Below are positions 31,833 through 42,517 of a DNA stretch of 56,303 nucleotides, piece by piece. The stretch's first letter is position 1, and each line of letters begins with the position of its first letter. Both the position numbers and the translations under genes were made by a program. This stretch comes from Acidobacteriota bacterium (GTDB taxonomy: Bacteria; Acidobacteriota; Terriglobia; Versatilivoradales; Versatilivoraceae). The DNA is taken from positions 1 to 56,303 of the forward strand of contig JAPPDF010000020.1 of the NCBI GenBank assembly GCA_028875575.1, read 5' to 3'. The notes under the pieces were generated by a model. That model did not search any database. It was not told the DNA's origin and was given only the letters and a program-made list of their open reading frames with translations.

Positions 31833-33263
31833 TCACTGCTTCTCGATTGCGTAGACATGAGATCGGGTCATGATGTAGAGAGTGCCGTTGGCAACCACGG
31901 GCGTGCTGTAGACGGTGTTGCCGAAGTTGGTTTCGTCGATGAGTCTCTTCTGGCGACCCGCCTCCAGAATGGTGAGGTCACCGTCCTCGTCTCCCAGCAT
32001 GACCTTGCCGTCGACCACGAAGGGTGAGCCCCAGACAGCCGCCAACATGTCGTGTTCCCAAAGCAATTTGCCGGTCTTCAGGTCCAGAGCGTGAAAGAAG
32101 CCGCTGAAATTGGCGGCGTAGAGCAGGCCGTCACGGATGGCCACGGTCGAGATGCTGCGGCGGAAGTCGTGGTGCCAGACGGCCCCGGTCTCCGTAATAT
32201 CCCCTGACTGAGTGGCGTCGATGGCAAAAAGGTGTCCCACGCCTTCGCCGTGCTCCGGATCCTGGCCCACCGCGATATAGACCATGTCGTTATAGACGAC
32301 GGGTGTCCCGATCAGATTGTTGCGGTCCCCCCTGCCGTTCTTCCATTCCGATTCCTTCGGATTGCAGTCGAACCGCCAGAATTCCTTGCCGGTCCGGGCT
32401 TCAAAGGAATAGAGCCAGCCGTCGCCGCCGGCGAAGATGACCTGGGGCCTGCCCGCGATCTCTCCGTAGGATGGAGAAGACCACTGGCCGTGGAGAACCG
32501 CATCCCCGGGCGCCGAGTTCTCCCAGGCCAACTTGCCGCTGTGGCGGTTCACGGCCAGGAAACTGGGTGCTCTGGGTACGGGAATATTGATATGGCTCTC
32601 ATCGGTGCCGTTGGAGGTGTTGACGAAAATCAGATCCCCCACCAGCAGCGGTGAGCTGGTGGCCAGGTTGTGCGGAAAGACCCCCAACTCTTCAATCATG
32701 TCGAAGGTCCACACCACGTCCCCGTCGATGGGGGAGGAGTGTTTCTCGTCCTTCACGGGGCCGTCGTTCTCCCCGTCCAGGAACCCTTCGGTGTCCAGGG
32801 CCACCACTTCCGCCCGGTTGGAGACATAGTAGAGTCGATCTCCGGACAGCGCCGGCGAGGAGCAAATGCCCTGCTCGGGCCAGTCATTGACTCTGCCGGC
32901 AGCCAGTTTTTCGTGGGTCATCTGCCAAAGGAATTTCCCGTCCTTCTCCCGGAAACACATGATGACGCCCCGGTCTCCGGTCTGTTTGGGATTGCGCAGC
33001 CGCTGGTTGTTGGTGCCCACAAAGACCTTGCCACCCAATATCGTGGGATTTCCATAGGACTGGGAGCCGATTTCGGCAACCCACTTGATGTTTTTCCCGG
33101 TCTTCAGGTCCCATTCGGCCGGTATTCCGGTAGCGTCCGAAACCATGTTCCTGTCGGGCCTGCCTCCCCACATGGGCCAGTCCCCCGCCAGTCCGGAGAT
33201 TTTCGCTCCGCCTGCCAGCAGGAGAACCACTGCTGCAACGACCTTAAGCTTTGGCAATGACAT
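31833..33263 (-). CDS. Exported PQQ-like (BamB-type) beta-propeller protein
   Basis: Protein of 476 residues. Signal peptide (about 1-24), then repeated propeller blades with Trp-docking motifs such as GKFLWQMTH, GKLAWENSA, GKEFWRFDC, GKLLWEHDM and the opening GDWPMWGGRPDRN. These repeats are those of PQQ-like/BamB proteins; the catalytic residues of quinoprotein dehydrogenases are not evident, so it is not called an alcohol dehydrogenase. Shine-Dalgarno GAGAGGA precedes the ATG. A larger propeller protein lies 38 bp upstream on the same strand, so they are probably co-expressed in the periplasm. Confidence 0.85.
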   Translation of the reverse strand: MSLPKLKVVAAVVLLLAGGAKISGLAGDWPMWGGRPDRNMVSDATGIPAEWDLKTGKNIKWVAEIGSQSYGNPTILGGKVFVGTNNQRLRNPKQTGDRGVIMCFREKDGKFLWQMTHEKLAAGRVNDWPEQGICSSPALSGDRLYYVSNRAEVVALDTEGFLDGENDGPVKDEKHSSPIDGDVVWTFDMIEELGVFPHNLATSSPLLVGDLIFVNTSNGTDESHINIPVPRAPSFLAVNRHSGKLAWENSAPGDAVLHGQWSSPSYGEIAGRPQVIFAGGDGWLYSFEARTGKEFWRFDCNPKESEWKNGRGDRNNLIGTPVVYNDMVYIAVGQDPEHGEGVGHLFAIDATQSGDITETGAVWHHDFRRSISTVAIRDGLLYAANFSGFFHALDLKTGKLLWEHDMLAAVWGSPFVVDGKVMLGDEDGDLTILEAGRQKRLIDETNFGNTVYSTPVVANGTLYIMTRSHVYAIEKQ

Positions 33264-33301: not shown

Positions 33302-35530
33302 TCAATGACCGGCCGGAGTGACGGAGACGTTATCGTAGTAGATTTCAGCTGCGGAATAGCCGTAGATGCCCGGGCTGCCCTGGCGGTGAACGATGGGGTC
33401 CTCGACCTCGATGGTCCATCCTTCGGGCTCGGGCTCATCACGCTTCCAGACCTTTCCCCGGATCATTCCTCCGGTTCCCTCCGAGAGAGTCTCGACCCGA
33501 AGCTTCATCCGGTACCACACGTCCGGGTCGACCCGGTAGTCGATGGTCTTGGAGAAGTGTCCCAGCTCCGACAGCCAGCTGCGGATCTGCAGCTTCTGGC
33601 GATTGCCCATCAAGGACAGGATATAGCGCTGGGCGATCAGACCCATGTCCGGAAGACGCCGGCGTTGTTCGGTGCCCATCATCTCTGCCTGAATCTCGTA
33701 GCCGGATGTCTTCCAGTCTCCCAGATATACCATGGTCCGCCAGGATCGAGGGTTGGCGGACAACTTTTTCAGAACCTTGTTGCCGTCCAGGGAGGTCACC
33801 ACAAATCGGCCCCGGGCGGAATTCCAGCCTGTAGCCACCGTTCCTTCTTCGAGGCGCTCAAAATCCTCCTGGAAGGGAATGGCGGGACGGGAGCTGATGC
33901 GAGCCGTTCCCTTCAGGTCGCCGACCTGGGCAGTGATCAGGCCTCCCTGAGGGATATTGCCGTCACTGAGGGTGAGTCGTCCGTCGGCGGAAACCTTCCC
34001 CTGGATTCCCTGCAGGGACCACACGGCCTGAGCCGTTTTCTTCCGTCCCCGGGCATCCACAACCCGTGCCGTGAAGGTCCTGGAGGCTGCTGGAGAGAGG
34101 ACGACCTCCCCGGGCTCCACCAACACACTTCGGGCTGGTCCCTCAAAAGAGTCGGAATCCCCCGGTTGCGGTTCCCCCCCAGCGGCAGCCGCCGGGCTGC
34201 GGTCTTCGAGTCCGATGCAGTAGAGCATGTTGCGAGTAAACAGATAAATGCGGCCATCGGCCACGGCAGGCGAGCCGTTGATGGACACGGCTGAGCCGTC
34301 GGCATTGGAGAATCGCTCCAGGTCCAGCTTTTGGGGAGGCTGGTGGCCGCGCAGTCCCAGAATGTGAAACTGCCCGTCAACGTCAGAGACAAAGAGCTTG
34401 CCGTCGGCGACAACCGGGGAGGCTCGCTGCATGACTCCCAGGTTGTACTTCCAGAGCTGTTTCCCCGTATCGGCCTGAAAGGCAACCAGATTGGCGGAAT
34501 TGTCCACGTGATAGAGGATGTTGTCGGCCAGGGCGGGCGAGGCATAGCCGGCGGTAAATCCGTCCACCTGCCAGACCAACTCGGGCTTGCCGTCAACAAT
34601 TTTACCGGCGTCCAGGCACACCAGCCGGCCCATGGCCGTGCTCTCGTCGACATTTTCTTCGCCGTGGGAGGCGAAAACCCGACTGCCCTGAACCACCACC
34701 GACGAGTTGATCCCTCGCTTGCTGAAGGGGAATCCCCAGACCCTTTCGCCGGTCGCCAGGCTGAGGCCGTAGACCGAGCCGTCGGCGTTGCCGCCGATCA
34801 GCAGGTCCCGGCCGTTGATTCGGCTCACCACCGGGACCGTGTAGGTCGTGTCCTTGGGCGCCTTGCCGGGTGTGGTCAGCCAGACGGTTTCCCCGGTGCG
34901 CTTGTCCAGGGCATAAAAACGATCCCGTGGGATCGCCGTGGCGCCCCATCCGGCGTTCAGGAAATTGACGAACAGCAGGTTACCGTGCAGGGTTGGAGTC
35001 ACTGTCCGCCCCCCGTAACCGGATATTCTCCCGACTTCCTCCTTGAGTGATCTCGACCAGACCACCTTGCCGTTGGGGTCAAGGCAGTGCACCATCCCTT
35101 CGATTCCGTTGGCGTAGATATGACCCGTATCGGGGTCGGCCGCCAGGCTGGCCCAACCGACCCGGTGGTGAGGGATATCGGTCAGGAACACCTTGTAGCG
35201 AAATTCCCAGCGCAAATCGCCTGTCTCGGCGTCGAAGCAGGAAATCTGCTCCTGCCAGCGGGACGGCGTTTCCGGTTCGGCCAGGGTGATGACACAGACC
35301 CGTCCGTCCACCACAATCGGCGTCGAGCGCCCGCCGATGGGCCGCTTCCACCTCAGGTTTTCTCCCTCCGGAGACCAGGTAGACGGAAGCCCGGTTTCCG
35401 CCGAAACGCCATCGGCGTTGGAACCTCTCCACATGGGCCAGTCAGTGGCTCCGGCAGGAACCGACAGACACACCAGGCTGCCAACGGAGAATGCAAGCCA
35501 TGCCTTCAGGAACTGTTTTGCCATCCGCAT
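33302..35530 (-). CDS. Exported PQQ-like propeller protein with Ig-like and concanavalin-like C-terminal domains
   Basis: Protein of 742 residues. Signal peptide (about 1-27), a propeller opening with TDWPMWRGSNADG and blades such as GDLRWEFRY, GKVVWSRSL, GERVWGFPF and GKQLWKYNL (about 30-440). A probable bacterial Ig-like domain follows (about 465-545, FTARVVDARGRKKTAQAVWS). The last 190 residues look like a concanavalin/3-keto-disaccharide-hydrolase-like sandwich (GYEIQAEMMG, WYRMKLRVETLS, IYYDNVSVTP). I choose ATG 35530 because GGGAG lies 10 bases upstream; an ATG 21 bases earlier is less well placed. Likely a periplasmic binding or enzyme complex component; the substrate is unknown. Confidence 0.82.
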   Translation of the reverse strand: MRMAKQFLKAWLAFSVGSLVCLSVPAGATDWPMWRGSNADGVSAETGLPSTWSPEGENLRWKRPIGGRSTPIVVDGRVCVITLAEPETPSRWQEQISCFDAETGDLRWEFRYKVFLTDIPHHRVGWASLAADPDTGHIYANGIEGMVHCLDPNGKVVWSRSLKEEVGRISGYGGRTVTPTLHGNLLFVNFLNAGWGATAIPRDRFYALDKRTGETVWLTTPGKAPKDTTYTVPVVSRINGRDLLIGGNADGSVYGLSLATGERVWGFPFSKRGINSSVVVQGSRVFASHGEENVDESTAMGRLVCLDAGKIVDGKPELVWQVDGFTAGYASPALADNILYHVDNSANLVAFQADTGKQLWKYNLGVMQRASPVVADGKLFVSDVDGQFHILGLRGHQPPQKLDLERFSNADGSAVSINGSPAVADGRIYLFTRNMLYCIGLEDRSPAAAAGGEPQPGDSDSFEGPARSVLVEPGEVVLSPAASRTFTARVVDARGRKKTAQAVWSLQGIQGKVSADGRLTLSDGNIPQGGLITAQVGDLKGTARISSRPAIPFQEDFERLEEGTVATGWNSARGRFVVTSLDGNKVLKKLSANPRSWRTMVYLGDWKTSGYEIQAEMMGTEQRRRLPDMGLIAQRYILSLMGNRQKLQIRSWLSELGHFSKTIDYRVDPDVWYRMKLRVETLSEGTGGMIRGKVWKRDEPEPEGWTIEVEDPIVHRQGSPGIYGYSAAEIYYDNVSVTPAGH

Positions 35531-35590
35531 CAAGTAGGATCTCCCTTCCATTCATTATCAGGTTAAGGGACAAAAAACAACCGGCGCCAC

Positions 35591-37288
35591 TTACGGGTCG
35601 GCCTTCCCCGGTCCGTCCAGGAATTTTCCCGGCCTGGCGTCAAGAGGACGTCCGGCTTCGACGACCAGCGTCCCGTTGACGATGACGTACTCAATACCCT
35701 CCGCAAATCGATGGGGCTCCTGAAAGGTGGCGGGGCCGGCGACCCGCTCAGCGTCAAAAATGGTGATATCGGCCTTCATGCCCACCTGGAGGAAGCCTCG
35801 GTTTCGGAGCTTCAACTTGGCTGCATTCATGCCCGTCATCTTGTGAATGGCCTCTTCCAGGTCCAGCACCCCTTCCTTTCTCACATACTTTCCCAGGACT
35901 CGGGCAAAGGCGCCATATCCATGGGGTCGAGTCACCTCCCCACCCGACGGATCGATGCCGGCGGTGGCGCCGCCGGAGCCGATGGAGACCCAGGGCGCCT
36001 GCAGGACGCTACGCAGATCCTCCTCGCTCATGAGAGAGTAGAGGACTGCCACCAGACCCTCGGTTTCCCGTAAAATATCAACCAGCGTGTCTCCGGGTTC
36101 TTGACCCAGTTCGGTCGCGATTGCCTGAATGCTCTTCCCGGTCAGAGCCTGAAATTTTCGGGAGTTCGCCTCCAACAGCACCACTCCCTCCCAGCCCCCC
36201 GCAGCCAGGAAAGCATTGAACTGCCCAGGCCGCTTGCGACGGAGTTCTCTCAGGATGCGGGCGCGAAGGTCGCTTCGGGAGAGCCGCTCCAACAGTTTCT
36301 CCCGCCCCCCCTCGGTTGCCCAGGGGGGCAAAAAGTTTTCCAGATTTGCCCGGGCGCTTCGATAGGGAGACAGGCTGGCAGTCAGAGCCAGTCCCGATTC
36401 CCTGCCCTTTTCGATGGAATCGAACACCTCTTGCAACTGACCGCGGCCAGGGTGGCCGGAAAGTCTCAAGCCCGGAATGTCCAGGGGGATCTGAGCTTGC
36501 TCCGCAAACTCCATGGCCTCCTTGATCGAATTGTCGATACCTGCGCGGGAATCGATCCCGGCGGAGTAGATCCCGCCGTGAGGGGTCACCTCCCGAGCCA
36601 ACTCGGCCAGTTGCTCGCCGCTCAGAATGCCTGCCGGAGACAATCGCACCGAGTTGGCAAGCCCCAGTGCACCCTCCAGCATGGCCTGCCCGACCGTCTG
36701 CTTCATTGCGGCAACTTCGGGCTGGGTGGGTTCCCGCCTGTCGTGGCCCAGGACCGAGCGCACGACATCTCCCACCTGGACGTATGCAGCCACGTTGAGG
36801 GGAAATTCCCCTTGCCGAAGCCGGTGGAAGGCTTCCCCCCACGGGGGGCGATCGGCCGAGACTTCCCGGAGCTCGGGTTCCGGCCCGGCGCCGGCCTGGA
36901 AAAAACGGCTCGGGTGTCCGCCTCCCAGGATCTCGGTGGTCACTCCCTGGCGCACCTTGCCGAGGGAGTCTGGATGGAACATATGCTCGGGTTCGGAACG
37001 ACTGTGGCTATCGATAAAACCGGGAGCTACCCATAGTCCCCGCGCGTCGATCACTTGACGCCCCTTCTGCTCCCGATCCTTCAACTCCCCCATGTAGACG
37101 ATCTCTTCGCCGTGAATGGCCAGGTCCCCGGGAAACCATAGTGAGCCGGACCCGTCGACGAGCTTGCCGCCGGCGATGATCAGGTCAAATTCGTATTGGG
37201 GAGATTGCCGGCAGGCCAGCAGGGTGCAGCAAAGAGCCAGCGCCAGCATGGCCCGCTTCAGCGAAGGCTGCGGCATCTTGAGAATCAT
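35591..37288 (-). CDS. D-aminoacylase-family lipoprotein, predicted catalytically inactive
   Basis: Protein of 565 residues. A lipobox LLAC (Cys26) anchors it as a lipoprotein. The amidohydrolase scaffold of N-acyl-D-amino-acid deacylases is clear: LIIAGGKLVDGSG, APGFIDSH, GVTTEI, GGIY, IGSGG, GYGAFARVLGKY, MTGMNAAKLKLRNRG, IVNGTLVVEAGRP. All five metal ligands I can align are replaced: the HxH motif reads HSR (His95, Arg97), the bridging Cys position is Gly124, the two later His positions are Gly244 and Gly273, and the Asp of IGSDG is Gly439. The reading frame is intact, so this looks like a retained pseudo-enzyme. AGGAAAG precedes the ATG. It lies between the propeller proteins and the bacilliredoxin. 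Confidence 0.85.
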   Translation of the reverse strand: MILKMPQPSLKRAMLALALCCTLLACRQSPQYEFDLIIAGGKLVDGSGSLWFPGDLAIHGEEIVYMGELKDREQKGRQVIDARGLWVAPGFIDSHSRSEPEHMFHPDSLGKVRQGVTTEILGGGHPSRFFQAGAGPEPELREVSADRPPWGEAFHRLRQGEFPLNVAAYVQVGDVVRSVLGHDRREPTQPEVAAMKQTVGQAMLEGALGLANSVRLSPAGILSGEQLAELAREVTPHGGIYSAGIDSRAGIDNSIKEAMEFAEQAQIPLDIPGLRLSGHPGRGQLQEVFDSIEKGRESGLALTASLSPYRSARANLENFLPPWATEGGREKLLERLSRSDLRARILRELRRKRPGQFNAFLAAGGWEGVVLLEANSRKFQALTGKSIQAIATELGQEPGDTLVDILRETEGLVAVLYSLMSEEDLRSVLQAPWVSIGSGGATAGIDPSGGEVTRPHGYGAFARVLGKYVRKEGVLDLEEAIHKMTGMNAAKLKLRNRGFLQVGMKADITIFDAERVAGPATFQEPHRFAEGIEYVIVNGTLVVEAGRPLDARPGKFLDGPGKADP

Positions 37289-37316: not shown

Positions 37317-37673
37317 TCAGGACTGAAGGAAGCGGCCGGCCACCTCGTTCATCTTTTCCAGCGTCAATCTCCAATGGGAGTCGTGCCAGAGGACCTTGGA
37401 GCCGGAAATGAGTAGAATTTGCGGGGATTCATGCTCCACCCCCAATTCCTCTGCGATTTGATTGGAGAGCGGGCGCTCCTCGATCACGCGAACCAGGGCG
37501 CAGTTCCAGGGGCGGTTGGTTCCGCCCTGTCGGTCGAATTCGGAGAAGGCGGAATAGACCTCGGCGCTGATGGGGCACTGGCTGCTGTGCTTCAGCAGAA
37601 AGACCGGCTCCCTATCGGAACCCGCCAGTAGTTCCTGCACATCCGCCGGAGTCTTGAGCTGAATAAAGGACAT
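37317..37673 (-). CDS. ytxJ: Monothiol bacilliredoxin (YtxJ/BrxC family)
   Basis: Protein of 118 residues. Thioredoxin fold with the single active-site cysteine Cys33 in LLKHSSQCPIS, followed by the family block VIEERPLSNQIAEELGVEHESPQ and KVLWHDSHWRLT. In Firmicutes these proteins remove bacillithiol from modified protein thiols. Its presence suggests bacillithiol or a similar low-molecular-weight thiol; no bshA/B/C genes are in the window. Starts about 35 bases after the upstream TPR gene; 28 bases separate it from the lipoprotein gene. Confidence 0.9.
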   Translation of the reverse strand: MSFIQLKTPADVQELLAGSDREPVFLLKHSSQCPISAEVYSAFSEFDRQGGTNRPWNCALVRVIEERPLSNQIAEELGVEHESPQILLISGSKVLWHDSHWRLTLEKMNEVAGRFLQS

Positions 37674-37710: not shown

Positions 37711-38766
37711 TTACTCCGAGTCGGGCTCGGCGGGGTCCTCGACCGCCGGCGCAGGCTTGCCGTTGCCGCCTGTCAGATCCGCCCGCGCCTGAGCCAACAG
37801 GTCTTGTAGTCCATCCAGAGAGTTCTGGTGGGTTGTTCGGTAAAGAGACTCCAGGTTGCGACGGGAAATCTCCTGATAGCCGCCCTCCAGGAGGGAAGCT
37901 CGGGCAAAGGCATTCATGGCTTGCGGGAGTCGCTTCAACCGGGTGGATACCACTCCCAGCTGGAAGTGAACGAATTGGGACCGCGGTTCCTCATTCAGAG
38001 ACTTGGTGAGATATCCGTAGGCCCTGGCCAGCAGGAGTGTGGCCAGCCTGGAACTGCCGGCGGTTGCGGTGCTCGGGCTCTTTGGCTGGGCGGGGTCTGT
38101 TTCGGTGCCAGCTGGGCTTGGAGAGCTCTCCTGCAGCGCAGCAGACTCCTTCGAGGCCTCCCGTTCCATCTCATACTTGACCAGATAGGCGTGGCCCAAC
38201 CCGGCTAGGCTCTGGGCCATATATCGGCGGTACTCGGCCTCCCACTGCTGCTGGTCGGTGTTGGCGGGCCGGACGATCTTTTGCAGCAGCCCCAGGGATC
38301 GGGTGGCCAGTTGAATGGAACGGTCGGGGTCTCCCTTGTCGGAGTGAGCCAGGGCCATCAGCGCCAGAATCGGAATGTTGTCGGGCGAATGTCCGAGCGT
38401 TTTCTGTCCGTGCTCAAACATTTTCTCCGGCCGATTCAGGCTTCGGTAGTCCATGGTGGCCATATGGTGAACCTGGCCCAGATATTTGGATTCGGGATAT
38501 TTCTGAATGAATGCCTCGATCAGCACGCTGCGCGGGGCAGGGTCGGTAGACTGCTTTAACTGGAGAAAGTCCTCTTGTTCCTGCGGGTCTTGGGCCAGCT
38601 CGTCAGCGGGCTCCGGAGCGTCGTAGATCCTTAGCTTGCCGGTTCCAGAGGACGGTGGGGTTTGAGCGAAGAGAGAGGTGGCCCCCAGGCCCTGGCACAC
38701 CGGCAGGTTTGGGGTGAGACCTGTTCCCGCAAGCAGCAGACCAATAGAGAGCGCTCTCAGGTTCAT
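37711..38766 (-). CDS. Exported tetratricopeptide-repeat protein, paralogue of 10611-11693
   Basis: Protein of 351 residues. Signal peptide from ATG 38766 (LRALSIGLLLAGTGLTPN); the frame extends upstream 23 codons without signal character. Helical TPR-like repeats follow (AFIQKYPESKYLGQVH, ALAHSDKGDPDRSIQLAT, FQLGVVSTRLKRLPQAMNAFARA). The C-terminal LESLYRTTHQNSLDGLQDLL corresponds to that of the other TPR protein. A Pro/Ser/Thr linker at about 215-240 resembles an inserted flexible segment. Probably a periplasmic scaffold; specific partners are unknown. Confidence 0.8.
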   Translation of the reverse strand: MNLRALSIGLLLAGTGLTPNLPVCQGLGATSLFAQTPPSSGTGKLRIYDAPEPADELAQDPQEQEDFLQLKQSTDPAPRSVLIEAFIQKYPESKYLGQVHHMATMDYRSLNRPEKMFEHGQKTLGHSPDNIPILALMALAHSDKGDPDRSIQLATRSLGLLQKIVRPANTDQQQWEAEYRRYMAQSLAGLGHAYLVKYEMEREASKESAALQESSPSPAGTETDPAQPKSPSTATAGSSRLATLLLARAYGYLTKSLNEEPRSQFVHFQLGVVSTRLKRLPQAMNAFARASLLEGGYQEISRRNLESLYRTTHQNSLDGLQDLLAQARADLTGGNGKPAPAVEDPAEPDSE

Positions 38767-38842
38767 GGTTATCCCGAAACAATCCGCACTTCCACCACTC
38801 CTGCCAGAATAGCAAAAATGAAAATGGCAGGTCACCCTTTTC

Positions 38843-39748
38843 TCAGGACACGATTCGGGCTTCGTTGGTGAGCGTGCCGATTTCCGGAATGGTAATTTCG
38901 ACGGTGTCTCCCTCCTGCAGAGCCGCCGCTTCGGTCTGAATAATTCCCGTACCGGTCAGCAACACGGTGCCGTCGGGAATCGGATTGGCGTAGAAGAGCC
39001 AGTCGATCAATTCCTGGATGGTTCGCTTCATCATGCTCAGCCGGGTGTCGCCGGAGAAAATGACCTGGTTGCCTCTTTTGATCTCGCAACGGATCGACAG
39101 GGCGTAGGGATCGGGAACTTCATCGGCAGTCAGCAGGACCGGACCCAGGGAGCAGCACCCGGTGTAGATCTTGGACTGGGGAAGGAAGAGAGGGTTTTCC
39201 CGCTCAATGTCCCAAGCCGAAACGTCATTGGAGACCAGGAACCCGAGAATCTCGCGTTTGGAAGAAAGCAGGACGCCCAACTCCGGCTCCACAGCCGTAA
39301 ACCTGGAGTCTTTCCGTATGCCGATGAAGTCGTTGGGACCGGTGCATCGGGCTTCGGTGCCCTTGAAGAACAGTTCCGGCCGATCGGAAAAATAGACATG
39401 GTCGTAGATTCCCGCGGGCGCTTGTGTGTCCCCGTCCCGGAATTCGGCGCTCTTCTTGTAGGTCACCCCGCAGGCCCAGACCTCGGGCGGATGAACGGGA
39501 ATGGCAGCATGGGGCTTTGTCGGGCTTGGCGAGACATTCAGCTCCGACCAGGTCAGGGAGAGGGCCTGGGAGGAGCAGTGTCTTTCCACCAGGTCCACAA
39601 GAGCGATCCCCTCCCGGTCGGCTCCGCGGGCGAAGTCCAGCAGTGTGCGCAGTCCGTTGGCTTCCGCCAGGACCGGGTAGACACTCTCGTTTTCCACTTT
39701 TGCCAGGTGAAGTCCAATTTCAGGGTCATGGATTTGAGCCAGTTTCAT
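38843..39748 (-). CDS. FAH-family enzyme, 2-keto-3-deoxypentonate dehydratase-like
   Basis: Protein of 301 residues. Fumarylacetoacetate-hydrolase fold with metal ligands in TAVEPELGVLL (Glu-x-Glu) and the following NDVSAWDIERENPLFLPQ block. The latter, with YDHVYFSDRPELFFKG and QSKIYTGCCSLGP, is characteristic of the branch containing 2-keto-3-deoxy-D-arabinonate (KdaD-type) dehydratases, so I favour that over simple FAH hydrolases; substrate is inference. AAGGAGATC before ATG 39748 fixes the start. The ACT/DUF5612 gene is upstream and the TPR gene downstream on the same strand. The YjhG-type dehydratase elsewhere in the window could feed the same pathway. Confidence 0.8.
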   Translation of the reverse strand: MKLAQIHDPEIGLHLAKVENESVYPVLAEANGLRTLLDFARGADREGIALVDLVERHCSSQALSLTWSELNVSPSPTKPHAAIPVHPPEVWACGVTYKKSAEFRDGDTQAPAGIYDHVYFSDRPELFFKGTEARCTGPNDFIGIRKDSRFTAVEPELGVLLSSKREILGFLVSNDVSAWDIERENPLFLPQSKIYTGCCSLGPVLLTADEVPDPYALSIRCEIKRGNQVIFSGDTRLSMMKRTIQELIDWLFYANPIPDGTVLLTGTGIIQTEAAALQEGDTVEITIPEIGTLTNEARIVS

Positions 39749-39778
39749 GAAGATCTCCTTCGCAGACAACACTGGGCG

Positions 39779-40462: not shown

Positions 40463-41161
40463 TCGGACCCCACCCCGGCGGTATCGAATGCGCAAAGTTC
40501 CGCGTTGCCGAAATCTAAATCAAGGCTGGTGTCAAGTCAACCGTGGCAAGTGGAGAGTGGAGAGTGGAGAGTTGTTGGATCGACACGTTAAGCCTCTTAT
40601 CTGAAACAAACGAAAAAAAGAGTTATCCACGAAGGCCCTGAAGGGCCACCAAGCGTGCCGGCTCTGCCGCATCGGCCGGGCTCAGGCCCGGCAAGCCAGC
40701 GCGTGGCCCCGTGAGAAGCAAGAGTGGTGGGAAGAGGCCCACCCGGGAGCGCGGGCGTCCCGCCCGCATGCTATTCCCTTCGGTGCCGCTCAGTTCCCCT
40801 CGATTTGGCACCCGGCCACCCTGCCGGCGGGAACGGCATGGGCTCGGCCGAAGCAGAGTCCCGGCGCCGTTGCCGGTCGAGCCGCGTGGAGGAGATGGGC
40901 GAGGCCTCGCCAGTGTGGTGCGGGCGTCCCGCCCGCACAAGGCCCGACTACGCCAGCTCGATTCAGCAGCGTCCTGATCTGCTCAAATGGATGGTGGGAC
41001 GCAGCCGCCGGAGCCTTGGCGCCGGTTGCGAGGTTCCCCAAAAGCGGGTATTCTCACAGCCGGTAATTGCGGAAGACCATTGGATACTTCGGGGACCACG
41101 GGATCGAGCTTCAAATCACCGGTCGTGGCACCGATATTCGCTTGAATCCAGGGGAATACCC
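40463..41161. other. Long intergenic region with short repeats
   Basis: About 700 bp without a supported gene. It holds GTGGAGA direct repeats (40552-40573), the reverse complement of the GGATAACTCTTTTT repeat (40601-40634), and two perfect copies of GCGGGCGTCCCGCCCGC (about 40752 and 40921). The open frame crossing it is the in-frame upstream extension of the oxidoreductase gene and has no conserved sequence. Confidence 0.55.
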
Positions 41162-42517
41162 ATGACCCATCAGAGCCGCCGAAACTTCCTGCGCCAGTCC
41201 ATTGGAATCACCGGAGTGGGCGCCTCCGCTTACCTTGCATCCAGTCCGCCCCTGCGGGCGGGGTCTCCAGCCCATTCCGATGCCCTGGGCGCCAACGACA
41301 GGATTCGGGTTGGCCTTATCGGATGCGGGGGAAGAGGCCGCAGGCTCCTGGAACTTTTCCTCAAGGTGGACGGGGTCAGTTGCGCGGCCCTTTGCGACGT
41401 GGACGATGGGCAAACCGGGAAGGCACTGCGTTCGATTGAAGCTGCTAATGGTCCCGCGCCCTTGCAGACCAGGGACTTTCGCCGGGTCCTGGACTTGAAG
41501 GAGCTGGATGCCGTCATCGTGGCGACACCCGATCACTGGCATGCCCTCCAATCGGTGGCGGCCTGTCAAGCCGGCAAGGATATCTACGTGGAGAAACCGC
41601 TCTCCTTGACCATTCAGGAGGGGCGAACCATGGTCAGGGCTGCTCGCCTCTACCAGCGAGTGGTCCAGGTGGGGACTCAGCAACGAAGCGCCCCCCAATT
41701 CGCTCAGGCGGTGGAGTATGTGAAATCCGGGCAACTTGGCCGGATTCGCCTGGTTCGGACCTGGGCCTACCTGGATTGGAAGGGAGCCACCCCCAAGGCT
41801 CCCGACGGTCCCCCGCCCGCCGGGGTGGACTACAACCTGTGGTTGGGTCCAGCCAGGCGCCAACCCTTCAACCCCAATCGGTTCCATTTCACCTTCCGCT
41901 GGTACTGGGATTATTCGGGAGGGCTGATGACCGACTGGGGGGCCCACATGGTCGATATCGCCAACTGGGGCATGGGGGTCAAGGCTCCCTCCGCTGCATT
42001 CTCAGCCGGAGGAAAATTCGCCTATCCCGACGACGCCATGGAGACTCCCGACACCCAGCAGGTCACCTGGGCCTTTCCCCATTTCAGCATGATCTGGGAA
42101 CACGCCCTGGGCGTGGGACGCGGACCGGAGGCACGGGAGCACGGGGTTGCCTTTCACGGAGAGGACGGGGTTCTGGTAGTGGATCGCTTCGGCTGGGAGG
42201 TGTTTCCCGAAACGCGGAGAATCGATAGCAGGCGGCGCACCTACAAGGCGGCGGGGCTGCCCCGGCAGAGGGTCGGACGGGACTATGCCCCCGACCACGT
42301 GCAGAACTTCCTCGACTGCATGCGCTCCCGAGAGACGCCGGTGGCGGATGTCGAAATCGGGCACAATTCGGTCATTGCCTGCCACCTGGGCAATATCGCC
42401 CAGCGCCTGGGACGTCAGGTCCGCTGGGACGTCGACAAGGAACAGGTGATCGGCGACCCTGAAGCGGAAGCCCTGACCGGCGTGAACTACCGGACTCCCT
42501 GGAAGCTGGCGCTATAG
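41162..42517 (+). CDS. Tat-exported Gfo/Idh/MocA-family oxidoreductase
   Basis: Protein of 451 residues. Twin-arginine signal SRRNFLRQ at residues 5-12, then an NAD(P)-binding Rossmann fold (VGLIGCGGRGRRLLELF), VATPDHWHAL, the conserved EKPLSL lysine motif, and a C-terminal beta domain (TFRWYWDYSGGLMTDWGAH). This Tat-type branch acts on sugars or cyclic polyols with NAD carried into the periplasm. Start at ATG 41162 with AGGGGAAT upstream. Gene neighbours give no clear substrate. Confidence 0.9.
   Translation: MTHQSRRNFLRQSIGITGVGASAYLASSPPLRAGSPAHSDALGANDRIRVGLIGCGGRGRRLLELFLKVDGVSCAALCDVDDGQTGKALRSIEAANGPAPLQTRDFRRVLDLKELDAVIVATPDHWHALQSVAACQAGKDIYVEKPLSLTIQEGRTMVRAARLYQRVVQVGTQQRSAPQFAQAVEYVKSGQLGRIRLVRTWAYLDWKGATPKAPDGPPPAGVDYNLWLGPARRQPFNPNRFHFTFRWYWDYSGGLMTDWGAHMVDIANWGMGVKAPSAAFSAGGKFAYPDDAMETPDTQQVTWAFPHFSMIWEHALGVGRGPEAREHGVAFHGEDGVLVVDRFGWEVFPETRRIDSRRRTYKAAGLPRQRVGRDYAPDHVQNFLDCMRSRETPVADVEIGHNSVIACHLGNIAQRLGRQVRWDVDKEQVIGDPEAEALTGVNYRTPWKLAL

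Follow-up and report, generated by a model that had tools for sequence, protein, structure and literature searches.

A lipoprotein of the D-aminoacylase lineage that has lost nearly all of its active site and is probably retained for a non-catalytic role

The locus and its neighbours

The window, which is the whole stretch of 56,303 nucleotides analysed here, is part of a draft genome of an Acidobacteriota bacterium of the order Ca. Versatilivoradales (class Terriglobia). The order was sampled as 12 genomes in four genera: g1, the genus of the window (7 genomes), g2, g3, to which genome G008 belongs, and g4. Among the loci, 'Candidatus Versatilivorator vitaminiformans' is the closest relative that has a name, and a sponge habitat is our guess for the window's bacterium from the group to which it belongs. 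The gene of interest and its neighbours are as follows.

31833..33263, minus strand: second exported PQQ-like beta-propeller protein, 476 aa (Pfam PQQ_2)
33302..35551, minus strand: exported PQQ-like beta-propeller protein, 749 aa, 39 bp downstream of the gene of interest (Pfam PQQ_2)
35591..37288, minus strand: site-less lipoprotein of the D-aminoacylase lineage, 565 aa (open reading frame; PDB D-aminoacylase match; Pfam Amidohydro_3)
37211..37222, minus strand: lipobox LLAC with the lipidated Cys26 (read from the translation; congeners also carry a lipobox)
37317..37673, minus strand: bacilliredoxin-like YtxJ/BrxC gene, the upstream neighbour
37711..38835, minus strand: exported TPR-like protein, also conserved beside active orthologues
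38843..39772, minus strand: FAH-family hydrolase gene, a conserved neighbour in all four genera

The 565-aa protein starts with an ATG, its translation reads as carrying a signal peptide, and its frame is open throughout, in agreement with the preliminary description, which had noted neither stop nor frameshift. The landmarks named there (APGFIDSH, GYGAFARVLGKY and MTGMNAAKL) are all intact. Pfam and NCBIfam place the protein among amidohydrolases, its closest solved structures are D-aminoacylases (1V4Y/1M7J, E 7e-51), and its homology to the D-aminoacylase-type (subtype V) enzymes spans both the barrel and the beta-sandwich (1V4Y, E 7e-51). With these matches and the lipobox around Cys26, its assignment as a D-aminoacylase-family lipoprotein is borne out. 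An AlphaFold2 run on six close sequences reached a pLDDT of 34 and the model was not used, and scans of viral contigs for further usable sequences yielded two relatives only.

The gene order in g1 is ACT/DUF5612, FAH, TPR, BrxC, the site-less gene, PQQ_b and PQQ_a, with gaps of 7–39 bp in the window, and that of G008 is FAH, the site-less gene, PQQ_b and PQQ_a. In g2 and in one g4 genome, FAH and TPR accompany the active orthologue, and the two propeller genes are found on a different contig. The site-less gene is thus orthologous to the active ones, and the propeller adjacency is confined to the two genera that lack the site. Every genus of the order has kept the two propeller genes as a pair, and on inspection of the translations the site-less protein and both propellers carry export signals. 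The YtxJ/BrxC gene lies inside the g1 operon, and the corresponding loci in the other genera show none. Elsewhere in the window, a Gfo/Idh/MocA open reading frame (40724–42517) probably starts about 125–147 codons downstream of its listed GTG, since its relatives match only from that point.

Loss of the active site and its spread among relatives

The following positions were located by alignment to the D-aminoacylase 1M7J, in which the metal-binding and catalytic residues are H67, H69, C96, H220, H250 and D366; their counterparts are His95, Arg97, Gly124, Gly244, Gly273 and Gly439.

36998..37006, minus strand: HxH position on strand 1, here His95-Ser96-Arg97 (HSR)
36917..36922, minus strand: bridging-ligand position, Gly123 (Glu in intact relatives) and Gly124 (1M7J Cys96)
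36557..36559, minus strand: Gly244, replacing His220
36470..36472, minus strand: Gly273, replacing His250
35972..35974, minus strand: Gly439, replacing the catalytic Asp366

The preliminary description had read the HxH as HSR, the two later His as Gly244 and Gly273 and the Asp as Gly439, all of which the alignment confirms. It had also concluded that every metal ligand was lost, which goes one residue too far for the window's species: five of the six positions are replaced and the first His of the HxH (H95) is retained. In the congener G004 position 95 is Leu, so that the remaining His is gone too. The bridging position, described as a Cys turned to Gly124, is indeed Gly by alignment, but in nearly all close homologues the bridging residue is the Glu of a GEG motif, in the column preceding that of the Cys and occupied here by Gly123; the ancestral bridging ligand is therefore likely to have been this Glu, and is unlikely to have been Cys.

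The loss extends beyond the metal site, as R246, E248, K275, W282, Y307, H454 and R456, positions at least 90% invariant among 46 intact homologues, are also replaced. In our own alignment the changes K275R, Y307S, D439G and R456H match Lys254, Tyr285, Asp368 and Arg379 of OngB, which bind a sulfate taken to indicate where the carboxylate of the substrate would lie (PMC12017989). In OngB each His of the HxH is essential and zinc is bound by Cys/His/His (PMC12017989). The window protein is without the subtype V zinc ligands (bridging Cys/Glu and two His), the catalytic Asp and the HxH, and none of the genus-invariant His, Asp, Glu, Cys and Lys residues examined in its barrel suggests a replacement metal site.

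The same pattern of loss is repeated in five other, separately assembled g1 congeners, and a sixth (G002), readable only from aa 392 (the C-terminal third), has Gly in place of the Asp. In G008 all six residues are lost, with different replacements (QTN, F, N and V among them). The search for orthologues with the same losses and the same neighbours, proposed in the preliminary description, thus found them in the readable members of g1, and found the loss of all six beside the propellers in G008. The g2 and g4 orthologues retain HSH, Glu, His, His and Asp; Glu, His, His and Asp are invariant at the site in the 46 intact homologues, and a scan of 396 phylum genomes added 24 homologues that retain these four and the HxH, the HxH excepted in one branch. 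An error of assembly or of a single genome is ruled out by the recurrence of the loss in other genomes, and this recurrence in separately assembled congeners, set against invariance in 46 intact homologues, likewise argues against chance. In the tree g1 and g3 form one clade within the order (98/98) on a long stem, with 0.88 changes per site for g1 compared with 0.08–0.21 on the end branches of g2 and g4. The exact position of G008, itself a long branch, needs care, and synteny agrees with it. The ancestor would have been a deacylase of the D-aminoacylase type with Glu, His, His and Asp in its site.

Three other departures from the canonical site were seen in the family. In a large Acidobacteriota branch (whose members include L018, L020, L021, L023, L026, L029, L031–L033 and the genome's own paralogue L002, G000:C26:18240-19907) the HxH is changed to LGQ or LSW while the Glu, both His and the Asp are kept; these proteins are possibly mononuclear enzymes with no need of the HxH, although each of its His is essential in OngB. 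L011 (G011:C265:5536-7194), an otherwise intact active orthologue, carries one in-frame TGA near aa 283 in the numbering of the window protein, which is either a sequencing error or a recent inactivation. Finally, L070 (G001:C1:3157393-3158973), an intact paralogue of the L005 type, has YSH in place of the HSH found in the five congeners compared.

Selection, constraint and loss of the insertion domain

Within g1 the pairwise dN/dS of the site-less gene is 0.25–0.36 and the pooled value is 0.31 (bootstrap 0.26–0.36), as obtained by counting (NG86), with no likelihood test and from pairs of related genomes that are not independent. Four neighbouring genes have values of 0.11–0.14, the TPR gene 0.26 and the active pair G009/G011 0.10; the mean for PQQ_a was left out of the neighbour comparison owing to a wrong match in G005. 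By these values the gene is under purifying selection and not simply decaying (dN/dS about 0.3). The constraint is distributed unevenly over the protein, as estimated with the published domain borders of OngB.

37022..37198, minus strand: N-terminal half of the beta-sandwich, aa 31–89 (alignment to D-aminoacylase/OngB), dN/dS 0.14
35924..37021, minus strand: catalytic (beta/alpha)8 barrel including the insertion domain, aa 90–455, dN/dS of the core 0.42
36041..36361, minus strand: insertion ('lid') domain as defined in PMC12017989, aa 310–416, dN/dS 0.25
35816..35923, minus strand: last barrel helices, aa 456–491, the most conserved part, dN/dS 0.06
35609..35815, minus strand: C-terminal half of the beta-sandwich, aa 492–560, dN/dS 0.21

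For the whole beta-sandwich dN/dS is 0.17, and the ratio of barrel to sandwich is 2.43 (1.57–3.79). The same ratio is 0.45 (0.24–0.80), 0.56 (0.28–1.07) and 0.73 (0.43–1.24) for three intact paralogues in the same five genomes, and 0.85 (0.37–1.95) for the active orthologue pair, so that the usual order of constraint is inverted only in the site-less protein. Accordingly, 41 of 43 near-invariant positions are retained in the sandwich and alpha-8, compared with 30 of 52 in the barrel (Fisher p 1.5e-5), where only 11 of the 27 polar ones remain. As the barrel value of 0.42 is below 1, some residual function of the pocket may persist.

The insertion domain, which follows beta 7, is present in the window protein, absent from G001 and mostly absent from G008. 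In G001, a single-contig genome, a 324-bp deletion removes aa 310–416 and a second deletion removes 33 bp; both are multiples of three and in frame, and the remainder is open to the end. The larger one corresponds to about 287–344 of 1M7J, within 1–2 residues of the published domain after a small numbering offset, and almost the same segment is missing from G008, where its ends differ slightly. A deletion shared by descent was rejected, as G001 groups in the tree with five lid-bearing congeners, and this grouping implies that the two deletions are independent. In OngB this domain (Ser290–His347) contributes to substrate binding (PMC12017989), and its loss fits a protein that no longer handles substrate.

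A probable non-catalytic role

Two properties mark the protein as a probable pseudoenzyme of the amidohydrolase superfamily: its catalytic residues are lost relative to an intact ancestor (alignment and tree) and selection on it is maintained (dN/dS). In our preferred reading, to which we assign a probability of about 0.78, this pseudoenzyme is retained for a non-catalytic role of the beta-sandwich and the last barrel helices (alpha-8 region), the former enzyme having probably been taken over as an anchor or binding protein without enzymatic function. The lipid-anchored protein would bind no zinc and activate no water, and would thus be inactive; its barrel would persist as a loosened scaffold in which the substrate-binding insertion domain is dispensable, while the sandwich and last helices would retain a function other than catalysis, most likely to hold some other exported protein or to set its position. 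The adjacent propeller proteins would be the first candidates for such a partner. The preliminary description had proposed a new binding or structural job, perhaps with the propellers; the loss in two genera, the dN/dS of about 0.3 and the shift of constraint, absent from four intact controls, speak for the non-catalytic part of this proposal, whereas the link to the propellers is circumstantial.

A narrower version, which overlaps with the pseudoenzyme reading as a special case, has the protein serve the two exported propellers next to it as a docking subunit. It draws on the propeller adjacency, found in both site-less genera and absent with the active orthologues, on the conservation of the pair throughout the order and on the export signals of all three proteins; it remains doubtful, because the adjacency amounts to a single evolutionary coincidence, because bacterial gene neighbours often share no complex, and because the FAH and TPR neighbours are older. 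A fuller picture, of a lipid-anchored deacylase turned adaptor that carries the propeller pair with the sandwich and alpha-8 as binding surface, the barrel as spacer and the lid excised at least twice, is a shade more speculative still.

The main rival to the pseudoenzyme reading supposes slow decay, in which catalysis has become useless and the remaining constraint serves only to keep the lipoprotein from misfolding or becoming toxic, no new function having been gained. A dN/dS 2–3 times that of most neighbours (0.31 compared with 0.11–0.14), the loosened barrel and the disappearance of most or all of the insertion domain in G001 and G008 are what such decay predicts. We nevertheless disfavour it as unlikely, given the strong partial constraint and the frame-keeping deletions: the frame is intact in all readable species, even past the two deletions in G001, the dN/dS of the sandwich and alpha-8 (0.06–0.2) is near the values of the active relatives, and the gene persists in two genera. 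It is very improbable that the protein still catalyses a reaction in its barrel through a rebuilt site or one that needs no metal. Although several acidic residues of the barrel are genus-invariant and a metal-independent subset is said to exist in the superfamily (PMC12017989), these acids are mostly present in intact relatives too, no barrel His or Cys before position 456 is genus-invariant, the flanks of the former site differ among congeners and constraint is weakest in the barrel.

D-aminoacylase (AfDam, 1M7J/1V4Y), N-acyl-D-glutamate deacylase (3GIP) and OngB (9KB1) are subtype V amidohydrolases whose sequence homology to the window protein covers the sandwich and the larger part of the barrel; the domain order is the same, with the insertion domain after beta 7. 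In contrast with them, the window protein has neither a Cys/His/His zinc site nor a catalytic Asp, its HxH is broken, its substrate-carboxylate residues are changed, and two of its relatives have the insertion domain deleted. As these defining features of the site fail, it descends from the D-aminoacylase family but lies outside that enzyme class. Amidohydrolase pseudoenzymes are already known. The CRMPs, dihydropyrimidinase-related pseudoenzymes of animals, have likewise lost metal ligands (CRMP-4 keeps 2 of 6) and lack the parent activity (PMC4051505); they belong to another branch and keep an active-site-like cavity, whereas here constraint has left the barrel. In bacteria, an inactive dihydroorotase of Pseudomonas is needed for assembly of the ATCase holoenzyme (cited in PMC4581275); it is a cytosolic protein of another branch with ATCase as its partner, whereas the window protein is a lipoprotein with only candidate partners. 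A search of one paper library for pseudoenzyme and D-aminoacylase together found no paper, which is weak evidence of novelty only. Because the order contains intact orthologues, the same genomes contain intact paralogues and the place on the tree is defined, the steps from enzyme to non-enzyme can be traced here: ligands were lost, the barrel loosened, the substrate lid was excised and the gene neighbours changed. Pfam passes the protein as an amidohydrolase, which is a warning for annotation.
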